Source: Chryseobacterium lacus
GTDB lineage: Bacteria > Bacteroidota > Bacteroidia > Flavobacteriales > Weeksellaceae
DNA: 64,000 bases
Direction of reading: 5' to 3'
Assembly: GCF_003336205.1 (NCBI RefSeq)
Contig: NZ_QPIE01000002.1
Location: forward strand, 310,001-374,000
Made by a program: the position numbers and the translations under genes. The notes under the pieces are model-generated. The model saw only the letters and a program-made list of their open reading frames with translations, was not told where the DNA came from and did not search any database. This document shows positions 23,841-26,265 of the stretch, in pieces. How positions within the stretch are numbered: the first letter of the stretch is position 1; each line of letters begins with the position of its first letter.

Positions 23841-24788
23841 CTACTGCGGTTTTATACTGATATAATCTTCTGGTTTTTCGAAATAATTCAGTTTATTTTC
23901 CACAGATTTCTTTACAAAAGAGGTGAATTCATCAATGATCTTTTGTTTATAAGTGGGTTTATAATAAATAATGCTGATTTCCCGGAAAGGAAAAGGCTTT
24001 CTGAAACGGGAAACTTTTTTGTTCTGCTCTTCGGAAAGCTGATGGGTAGCCATTTCCGGAATAATAGAAATGCCGCCTACTTTATCCACCATTTGTATCA
24101 GCGTATTAATATTAGAAGCCATGAAATCAAGATTTTTTGGCTTCATTGTGTTTTCTTTCAGATGACAAATATTTTCAAACTGCGTTCTCAGACAATTGCC
24201 TTCTTCCAGCAACCAAACTTTATTAACATCAATGGCTTCAGGAACAATATAGCTGTCTTCCTTGGTGATATTTTCTGAAGAATAAATCATCAGTTCTTCA
24301 TTAAAGAGAAAATCCTGATAAAATTCGGAAGCTGCATCGAAAGGCGTAGAAATAATTCCCGCATCCAATTCGCCGGATTTCAAAGACTTAATAATATTTT
24401 CTGTAGTCATTTCTTTTACCTGCATTTCTACTTTTTGATTGATTTGAAGAAAATCAAATATTTCAGTAGGCAAAATGTAAGTGGAAACCGTGGGAATAAT
24501 CCCGAGGTTAATTTTGCCGCCCAATACGTTGTTTAGTAAATCGGCTTTAGTGCGGAGTTCATTTACAGAATCAATGATAGTTTTCGCATGAACGATAATC
24601 TGCGAACCGACATCAGTAGTACGGATAGGATGCGTAGTGCGGTCGAAAATCTTTACATCAAGCTCATCTTCAAGCTTTTGGATCATCGCACTTAAGGTGG
24701 GCTGCGTAATAAAACACGCTTGTGCCGCTTTGCCAAAGTGCTTATATTTATCTACTGCTATTAGGTATTCTAACTGTTGAATGTTCAT
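23841..24788 (-). CDS. LysR-family regulator, OxyR-like
   Basis: The 315-residue regulator starts at the ATG at 24788 (MNIQQLEYLIAVDKYKHFG). An N-terminal winged helix-turn-helix (about residues 1-60) contains ACFITQPTLSAMIQKLEDEL. The effector domain has GIIPTVSTYILPTEIF and DAGIISTPFD. It resembles the hydrogen-peroxide-sensing OxyR group of Bacteroidota. A cysteine in EGNCLRTQFENICHLKE (two Cys spaced by nine) fits the OxyR redox pair. It is divergent from the catalase-family gene with a 112-base shared region, so control of that gene is the simplest inference. Confidence 0.85.
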   Translation of the reverse strand: MNIQQLEYLIAVDKYKHFGKAAQACFITQPTLSAMIQKLEDELDVKIFDRTTHPIRTTDVGSQIIVHAKTIIDSVNELRTKADLLNNVLGGKINLGIIPTVSTYILPTEIFDFLQINQKVEMQVKEMTTENIIKSLKSGELDAGIISTPFDAASEFYQDFLFNEELMIYSSENITKEDSYIVPEAIDVNKVWLLEEGNCLRTQFENICHLKENTMKPKNLDFMASNINTLIQMVDKVGGISIIPEMATHQLSEEQNKKVSRFRKPFPFREISIIYYKPTYKQKIIDEFTSFVKKSVENKLNYFEKPEDYISIKPQ

Positions 24789-24808
24789 TTTATTAATAAT
24801 ATCTATCA

Positions 24809-24816
24809 CAAAGATA
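24809..24816 (-). promoter_or_regulatory. candidate -7 element for the OxyR-like gene
   Basis: Reads TATCTTTG on the minus strand (TAnnTTTG). It is embedded in TATC-N9-GATA dyad symmetry at 24800-24816, which could also be a LysR-type binding site. Confidence 0.4.
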
Positions 24817-24869
24817 AGCTGTTTTTGATAATATGTGTTAAATTTCAGGGTATTATTAAAAGCAATCCC

Positions 24870-24877
24870 TAAATTTG
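24870..24877 (+). promoter_or_regulatory. candidate -7 element for the catalase-family gene
   Basis: TAAATTTG matches TAnnTTTG and lies 23 bases before the ATG at 24901, which supports that start over the ORF start at 24835. The missing -33 box fits an activator-dependent promoter. Confidence 0.5.
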
Positions 24878-24900: not shown

Positions 24901-26265
24901 ATGGACTTTAGAAAAATGACTCCGTCTTCCGATCGTCAGGATGCGTCATCCGATCAAACTACTGTACTTCACGATTTCCTGCTTCGCGAAAATATGGCCC
25001 GCATTGCACGGGAACAAATTCCGGAAAGAGCTGTGTACGCAAAAGGATCCGGAGCTTATGGCACCTTTACTGTTAGCCGCGAACTTTCAGCATACACACA
25101 AGCTAAGCTTTTTTCAAAAGCTGGAAACAGCTGCAAGATATTTACAAGATTTTCAACTCTTGGAAGCGAAAAAGGAAGCCCGGATGCTGCAAGAGACTTG
25201 CGGGGATTTGCTATAAAATTTTATACAGAAGAAGGAAACTGGGATTTGGTGGGCAACAATACGCCGGTTTTCTTTATTAATGACCCAAAAAAGTTTCCGG
25301 ATTTTATTACCAGTCATAAAAAGCTCCCGAAGACTAATCTGAAATGCGCAAATGCAATGTGGGATTTCTACAGTCAGAACCCTGAAAGTCTTCATCAGAT
25401 AATGATGCTAATGTCCGATCGAGGCACTCCGAAAGGTTACAGACATATGAATGGCTACGGATCTCATACTTTTTCAATGATTAATGAAGCGAAGGAAAAA
25501 GTCTGGGTGAAATTTCATCTCAAAACTCAGCAGGGAATTCAGAATTTTTCCCGAGAAGAAGCTATAAGAAATAGCGGAGAACATCCGGATTCAGCACAGG
25601 AAGATCTGTGTGACGCCATCGAACAGGGCATTTTCCCATCATGGATTATGTACATTCAGGTTATGACGGAGGAACAGGCGAAAAATTCTCGCTGGAATCC
25701 CTTCGATGTGACCAAAGTTTGGTTTCAGGACGAATTTCCATTGATAGAAATCGGCAAAATAGAACTTAATGAAATCCCTTCGGATTATTTCAGTCATGTA
25801 GAACAAGCTGCTTTTGCCCCTTCAAACCTTATTCCTGGAATCGGTTTTTCTCCGGACAAAATGTTGCAGGCTAGATTATTCTCTTACCCCGATTCACAAA
25901 GACACAGAATCGGCATCAATGCTGGACAAATTCAAGTTAATCAATCACCTTTTACAGGTAACCAAAATCCCTCTCTTCGTCAAAACGAAATGGATTTTAG
26001 CCAATACATCGCGCTTGAAACCGATGAAGATCATTATACCCAACCCGGACTTCTCTACACTAAAGTAATGAACACTGAGGACCGCAACAGGCTGATTCAT
26101 AACATTATTGAAAGTATGAAAGAAATTAAAGGAAGCCAAAAAGATGAAATCATCAACCGTCAGCTCTGTCATTTTTTCCGCGCGAATATTGAAATGGGAA
26201 TGAAAATCGCAATGGGGCTTCAAATTAATATTGATGCCAACACACTCAGCCATGCCAAAGTTTAA
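24901..26265 (+). CDS. catalase-family heme protein lacking the distal catalytic histidine
   Basis: The 454-residue protein is clearly of the small-subunit catalase fold. It retains RFSTLGSEKGSPDAARD, the distal Asn in GNWDLVGNNTPVFF, and the proximal heme Tyr in RLFSYPDSQRHRIG near residue 326. In place of the catalytic His of the usual PERxxHAKGSGAYG motif it has Tyr at residue 46 (codon TAC at 25036-25038). The alignment across this motif is gap-free. The usual N-terminal GPRGPVLLQD segment is degenerate, and an internal region after QVNQSPF is about 60 residues shorter than in common catalases. The family mechanism needs the distal His, so classical catalase activity is doubtful; a different peroxide or organic substrate, or a heme-binding role, is possible. 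It faces an OxyR-like gene. Confidence 0.9.
   Translation: MDFRKMTPSSDRQDASSDQTTVLHDFLLRENMARIAREQIPERAVYAKGSGAYGTFTVSRELSAYTQAKLFSKAGNSCKIFTRFSTLGSEKGSPDAARDLRGFAIKFYTEEGNWDLVGNNTPVFFINDPKKFPDFITSHKKLPKTNLKCANAMWDFYSQNPESLHQIMMLMSDRGTPKGYRHMNGYGSHTFSMINEAKEKVWVKFHLKTQQGIQNFSREEAIRNSGEHPDSAQEDLCDAIEQGIFPSWIMYIQVMTEEQAKNSRWNPFDVTKVWFQDEFPLIEIGKIELNEIPSDYFSHVEQAAFAPSNLIPGIGFSPDKMLQARLFSYPDSQRHRIGINAGQIQVNQSPFTGNQNPSLRQNEMDFSQYIALETDEDHYTQPGLLYTKVMNTEDRNRLIHNIIESMKEIKGSQKDEIINRQLCHFFRANIEMGMKIAMGLQINIDANTLSHAKV

Follow-up and report, generated by a model that had tools for sequence, protein, structure and literature searches.

Catalase is a textbook enzyme, and its distal histidine is taken as indispensable. 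The title of PDB entry 3hb6 reads 'Inactive mutant H54F of Proteus mirabilis catalase', and the H128N variant of Escherichia coli HPII is called inactive in the account given in PMC9687031. For Pseudomonas aeruginosa KatA, PMC3963858 calls the distal His essential for activity and also describes a role of the protein in nitric oxide protection, which by analogy makes non-catalatic roles for the heme of a catalase plausible. The gene considered here lies in a stretch of 64,000 nucleotides of DNA from Chryseobacterium lacus, referred to as the window, and encodes a protein of the catalase fold that has Tyr where the catalases have this His.

The catalase-fold gene of the window

The gene and the codon concerned are:

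24901..26265, + strand: catalase-fold gene, Tyr replacing the distal His; open frame, 454 aa; PF00199 at 3.8e-161 and PF06628 at 1.7e-14
25036..25038, + strand: TAC codon for Tyr46 at the distal-His position; ungapped in alignment to KatA structures, Tyr also in the congener G001

The frame is free of stops throughout, from the ATG at 24901 to 26265. A GTG at 24835 lies upstream of the promoter-like TAAATTTG (24870-24877), therefore the ATG is the better start. The catalase motif of the window protein is PERAVYAKGSGAYG. In an alignment of solved catalases that is ungapped through the region, Tyr46 stands opposite the distal His of Helicobacter pylori KatA, and residues 22-345, the core, align without a gap to 63 other KatA-type proteins. 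The substitution of Tyr for the distal His, as first described in the initial annotation, is therefore confirmed. The ortholog in G001, which is 95% identical and comes from a separate assembly, likewise has Tyr, which makes sequencing error very unlikely as the source. Nor has another His taken over. The only His residues of the window protein that are absent from all of the His orthologs are at 24, 139 and 228, and none of these fits the distal place.

The window protein has both the Catalase and the Catalase-rel domains of a clade 3 monofunctional heme catalase, with the distal Asn and Ser (Asn119 and Ser85) and the proximal Tyr and Arg (Tyr329 and Arg325) in place, but at the position of the distal catalytic His of the PF00199 clade 3 catalases it has Tyr46. 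Its predicted model matches human and bacterial catalases, for example 4e37 (Z 54.6, rmsd 1.7 over 393 residues). AlphaFold confidence at the distal motif is low, as it also is for a canonical KatA model, and the prediction is of no help for the distal pocket. On its sequence, the window gene is KatA by descent and, by the distal His that defines the enzyme, would not be a catalase in function. It should be borne in mind that a Pfam domain search labels such genes as catalase.

Distribution of the loss among relatives

The comparison covered 64 KatA-type proteins, second catalases and large catalases being left out, and 52 of them have His at residue 46. In the other 12, here called His-less, it is Tyr (the window genome G000, with G001, G003 and G113), Phe (G093, G130 and G018), Asn (G109, G121 and G066), Ser (G179) or Gly (G005). 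Relatives with Tyr at this position, raised in the initial annotation as something an alignment might reveal, thus do exist. What goes beyond that annotation is that the loss is shared with other genera of the family and sits in the ordinary katA locus. As read from the predicted proteins, distal His loss at one orthologous locus is common to at least five genera (g1, g3, g5, g18 and g26). One His protein, that of G006, is cut by a contig end and is excluded from the counts of intact His proteins, which number 51, and from the catalase trees.

A total of 145 distinct catalase frames, including 80 loci from other bacteria, contained only these 12 His-less cases, with L063 cut by a contig end. 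A further 40 catalase loci and 18 family loci, some of which repeat counted genomes, revealed no more losses and all have His. Of 395 genomes searched outside the family but within its order, 16 have a match at 1e-150, and the 17 matching loci all have His. The 12 are a lower bound, with 320 family genomes searched and residue-level reading for part of them. No description of His-less catalase-like proteins was found in the open-licence literature searched. In another family of the order, two catalase genes lie head to tail (L257 and L258, G322:C1:2879187-2882245), the second match having one in-frame TAA.

The heme pocket and the wrapping loop

The residues and the linker referred to in this section are:

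25153..25155, + strand: codon of the distal Ser85, kept in 12/12 His-less and 51/51 His proteins
25255..25257, + strand: codon of the distal Asn119, kept in the window; kept in 5/12 and lost in 7/12 His-less proteins
25873..25887, + strand: proximal heme ligand motif Arg325 to Tyr329 (RLFSY), kept; both residues in 12/12 His-less and 51/51 His proteins
25942..26016, + strand: shortened linker in the wrapping-loop region, about 33-36 residues missing; 22 residues against 41-44 in intact His orthologs, and from the alignment with H. pylori KatA

Apart from the distal His, the heme pocket of the window protein is as the initial annotation had it, with RFST, GNWDLVGNNTP and RLFSYPD all intact. All 12 His-less proteins retain R43, R83, S85, R98, D99, F132, R325, Y329 and R336, which include the heme contacts (R43, R83, S85, F132, R325, Y329 and R336) and with them the propionate arginines. 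The roles of these sites are assigned, as a working assumption, through human catalase numbering (P0001 + 29), by which Val87 is taken to be human Val116. We also take Val87 to be the same site as V111 of a described V111A catalase variant. The His-less proteins have replaced Val87 in 11 of 12 cases, and 9 of the 11 replacements are bulkier (L, F or M).

It is decidedly unlikely that the His-less proteins still consume peroxide, with Tyr, another residue or water supporting slow formation of compound I in what would be a peroxidase or a hydroperoxide-converting enzyme. The intact heme site with Ser85, joined in the window protein by Asn119, is what such an enzyme would have, and a change of the channel residue Val87 would suit it too, the V111A variant being reported in PMC9687031 to gain peroxidatic activity. 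However, the bulkier side chains found in most of the replacements would narrow the channel, and the residues at position 46 are chemically unlike one another (Y, F, N, S and G). With five different residues there, and Asn119 lost from 7 of the 12, the proteins do not share any one new distal chemistry. Judged on these residues, a heme-binding role without new catalysis would fit at least as well as the repurposed enzyme.

The N-terminal arm motif is degenerate, as the initial annotation had seen, but its estimate of an internal shortening of about 60 residues is too high. Compared with the 495 aa ortholog of G081, the window protein lacks 41 residues, 8 of them N-terminal and about 33 in the linker that follows the proximal Tyr; against H. 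pylori KatA the linker deletion is 35 residues. The linker has 22 residues in the window protein, compared with 41 in 50 of the 51 intact His orthologs and 44 in the other one. The window protein thus lacks the full N-terminal arm and wrapping loop of a clade 3 catalase. Of the His-less proteins, 11 are shortened in the wrapping-loop region (linkers of 10-30), and G066 has the full 41.

The 51 intact His proteins have 177 invariant residues in common, of which G066 keeps 175 and the other 11 His-less proteins 119 to 148. Since G066 has Asn46 with all else intact, the His appears to have been lost first. This suggests that the distal His goes first in the erosion of these proteins.

The full-length KatA of G066 (locus L184) has H48 as well as N46 (VVNAHG). 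Two g21 genomes have H48 together with H46 (VVHAHG; L288 and L289), therefore His in place of Lys48 occurs as natural variation.

The katA locus and its upstream elements

The usual gene order in the family is had-sig-porT-metK-oxyR / katA-ech-dcmp-xerD-nudix, with oxyR adjacent to the catalase gene in 60 of the 64 loci laid out. The window gene is in the canonical KatA position with the same neighbours, and is therefore the syntenic ortholog, in place, of the family's ordinary OxyR-linked KatA. On its 5' side are:

23841..24788, - strand: oxyR, divergent; start at MNIQQLEYL, the ORF listing beginning at GTG 24809; C-x8-C redox cysteines
24800..24816, + strand: TATCTATCACAAAGATA, inverted repeat conserved between oxyR and katA, probably an OxyR site; recognised by eye in many extracted gaps
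24870..24877, + strand: TAAATTTG, promoter -7-like element, present in 10/10 His-less loci with the oxyR-katA gap extracted

The OxyR-like neighbour that had been noted is a real divergent oxyR. Its C-x8-C pair is kept in all 60 aligned OxyR proteins, including 11 of 11 beside His-less genes. The ten His-less gaps are those other than G066 and G018, the latter having no oxyR there. The role of TAAATTTG as a promoter element is presumed from what is generally held of Bacteroidota promoters. By eye, the TATCTATnACAAAGATA box is well defined in the window but degenerate in both G003 and G121. Taken together, the neighbouring oxyR, whose product has the redox cysteines, and the conserved box upstream would place the gene in the OxyR regulon.

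The TATCTATnACAAAGATA box and the TAAATTTG element (window positions 24800-24877) recur across the loci of the family and may serve as an OxyR operator and promoter. Among the His-less forms the most diverged is that at L183 in G018 (Phe46, Gln119 and Asn189), where no oxyR was found in the locus and metK and ech flank the gene. A new partner gene was looked for gene by gene at six His-less loci, in other genera and in g26, and none was seen; the neighbours are those of the canonical katA.

Number of origins

The His loss has at least two origins, and up to about seven by the neighbouring genes. On the neighbour-gene tree the 12 fall in about seven lineages, with 7 state changes of which 5 are forced by starred branches. 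A single clade of all 12 is rejected on these genes (p-AU 1.9e-6), as is one of the six from genus g26 (p 5.5e-87) and, weakly, one of the two from g5 (p 0.02). The evidence on origins is in conflict, with the neighbouring genes indicating many and the catalase sequences preferring one clade for the 11 short proteins. Only 2 changes are needed on the catalase tree.

It is possible, if doubtful, that the 11 short genes go back to one origin, their coding sequence having been swapped into the same locus of other genera, with G066 apart, as it is from the other His-less proteins in every tree. This would concern the history of the genes and is compatible with a heme protein as their function. When one His-less set at a time was added to free quick trees, g1, g26A, g26B, G005 and G018 were placed beside G012/G014/G040 (support 82-93), G003 near that corner and G066 beside G025, so that five of the seven sets go to one corner of the tree and not to their own relatives. 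Under LG+F+G4 with all 63 rows included, grouping the 11 short proteins in a single clade gives a fit as good as that of the free tree; forcing g26A, g26B, g1 and G005 to their own relatives, with G003 and G018 free, is rejected (p-AU 0.015). Changes such as Ala129 to Pro are shared by 9 of the 12 His-less proteins, against 1 of the 51 with His. Signature sites do not favour own relatives over others (g1 5 vs 9, g26A 2 vs 2, g26B 0 vs 1 and G005 5 vs 8), although this count is also wrong for G066 (8 vs 11).

However, most of the His-less rows in the first catalase tree have branches of 0.6-2.65 changes per column, against a median end branch of 0.09. With branches as long as these, long-branch attraction and convergence are live concerns for the catalase trees, and such rows with shared channel changes are readily joined by tree programs. 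When a single set (g26A, g26B, G005 or g1) was constrained to group with its own relatives, the likelihood was 8-16 units above that of the free quick tree (p-AU 0.67-0.82). The rejection of one clade by the neighbouring genes also stands against a single origin, as does the variation between lineages in residue 46 and in linker length. The upstream gap of each of the six g26 rows is closest to that of another g26 row; the gaps of G000, G001, G003 and G005 are uninformative. Spread on plasmids was considered as well, and no plasmid record has a close relative, all 540 matches being below 60% identity. Repeated loss in place, with at least two origins, is regarded as the probable history.

Selection and other catalases

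The frames are open in all 12 His-less genes. In a neutral simulation of the window gene, 0.95% of copies are stop-free after 0.09 substitutions per site, corresponding to one G000/G001 lineage, and 0 of 2000 after 0.18, the whole G000/G001 path. By likelihood fit, dN/dS is 0.20 for G000/G001 (0.10 in the core, LR against 1 of 44) and 0.25 for G093/G130 (0.13 in the core, LR 17.5). In 14 pairs of His orthologs it is 0.012-0.041. Four older His-less pairs give 0.017-0.044 with synonymous sites saturated, fits with dS above about 3 being rough. Six within-lineage pairs of His-less proteins have a core distance, relative to that of metK and oxyR only (one G001 neighbour gene being truncated), of 3.3-3.8. 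In 1128 His pairs the median of this ratio is 0.71, the 95th percentile 1.17 and the maximum 3.32. The rate of evolution of the His-less proteins is about five times that of true KatA, which implies that some of the constraint has been relaxed. The His-less genes are under purifying selection; the constraint on them is weaker than on catalase but still considerable.

The window genome (2.38 Mb) has one further heme catalase, in which the His and the other catalytic residues are intact. Compensation by KatG or Mn-catalase does not apply, since no KatG was found in G000 and Mn-catalase was found in 0 of 63 genomes. Another heme catalase is present in 11 of the 12 His-less genomes, some of which also have KatG. 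Counting another heme catalase or KatG as a backup, 11 of 12 His-less and 43 of 51 His genomes have one, and a link between His loss and backup is not significant (Fisher p = 1). In G003, a 2.0 Mb genome that is 99% complete, the Tyr form at L172 (4985-6379) is the only PF00199 protein found, and neither KatG nor Mn-catalase was found. On this gene content the G003 species should be catalase-negative.

The faster evolution, the dN/dS of 0.20-0.25 above that of the His orthologs, and the other heme catalase in nearly all of the His-less genomes are what would be seen if the gene had become redundant once another catalase was present, was relaxed and is now on its way out. Such slow decay is nevertheless unlikely. 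Open frames in every case and core values of 0.10 and 0.13 argue against it, as does the old split of G113 and G130, which have a dN/dS near 0.03 that is rough with synonymous sites saturated. In addition, the heme contacts are perfectly conserved, the backup is equally common in genomes that kept the His, and G003 still keeps the gene where no backup was found. The initial annotation had argued against simple decay, and these results uphold it.

Function of the His-less proteins

The conservation of the heme contacts under selection, coupled with the loss of the distal His, suggests that the His-less proteins do something other than H2O2 breakdown. The best reading is of a heme-binding, OxyR-linked "para-catalase" that would have lost fast H2O2 dismutation and been kept for another role, to which a probability of a little under 0.6 is given.

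The following steps are proposed. The family's ordinary OxyR-linked KatA would have lost its distal His in place, and the parts that interlock the tetramer would have eroded; the N-terminal arm motif and the wrapping loop are affected in the alignments, with a presumed effect on structure. Given the full conservation of the proximal residues, the catalase barrel most likely still folds and binds heme through Tyr329 and Arg325. Compound I would most likely form too slowly for catalase action. Since the H-to-F and H-to-N forms are reported inactive, the Tyr form is by analogy also expected to be without fast catalase activity, with its heme held on the conserved proximal side. The retained OxyR, box and promoter element make it probable that the gene is expressed under OxyR control, and selection would keep the protein for a role that needs bound heme and not fast H2O2 dismutation. 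A first guess is a protein made in oxidative stress that holds heme or reacts slowly with peroxide or another ligand.

A fuller account can be given tentatively, in which an OxyR-controlled catalase has become, in place and on more than one occasion, a heme protein with a new function that is not catalatic, the His being lost first and the tetramer interlock next. This function might be, for example, to hold heme, or to bind peroxide, NO or another ligand and so signal or buffer in oxidative stress. Nothing points to one specific new function, there being no new partner gene at the six loci and no shared new distal residue.

Loss of the His from the same locus of several genera, where all heme contacts are kept and the frames are under purifying selection, would be a natural experiment on the roles of catalase beyond H2O2 removal.

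Comparison with known catalases

The closest known system is the oxyR-linked clade 3 KatA. The window gene shares with it the locus, the neighbours, the promoter box, the predicted fold, the Catalase-rel domain, the proximal Tyr and Arg, the propionate arginines, and the distal Ser and Asn. It differs in the distal Tyr for His, the degenerate N-terminal arm motif, the absence of about 33-36 wrapping-loop residues, and changes at Val87 and Pro100.

Catalase-negative Staphylococcus aureus provides a second parallel, in that a katA missense change is described there with loss of activity, which is also expected here. In the S. aureus descriptions, however, the loss is at the level of isolates, whereas the His-less state is shared across species and is under purifying selection.

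The engineered H54F of P. mirabilis (3hb6) and H128N of E. coli HPII, as described, have the same position replaced with the fold kept. Both of these replacements also occur in nature, H-to-F in G093, G130 and G018 and H-to-N in G109, G121 and G066. The engineered proteins are laboratory mutants of otherwise normal catalases, whereas the natural forms, except for G066, have many further changes and are maintained by selection.
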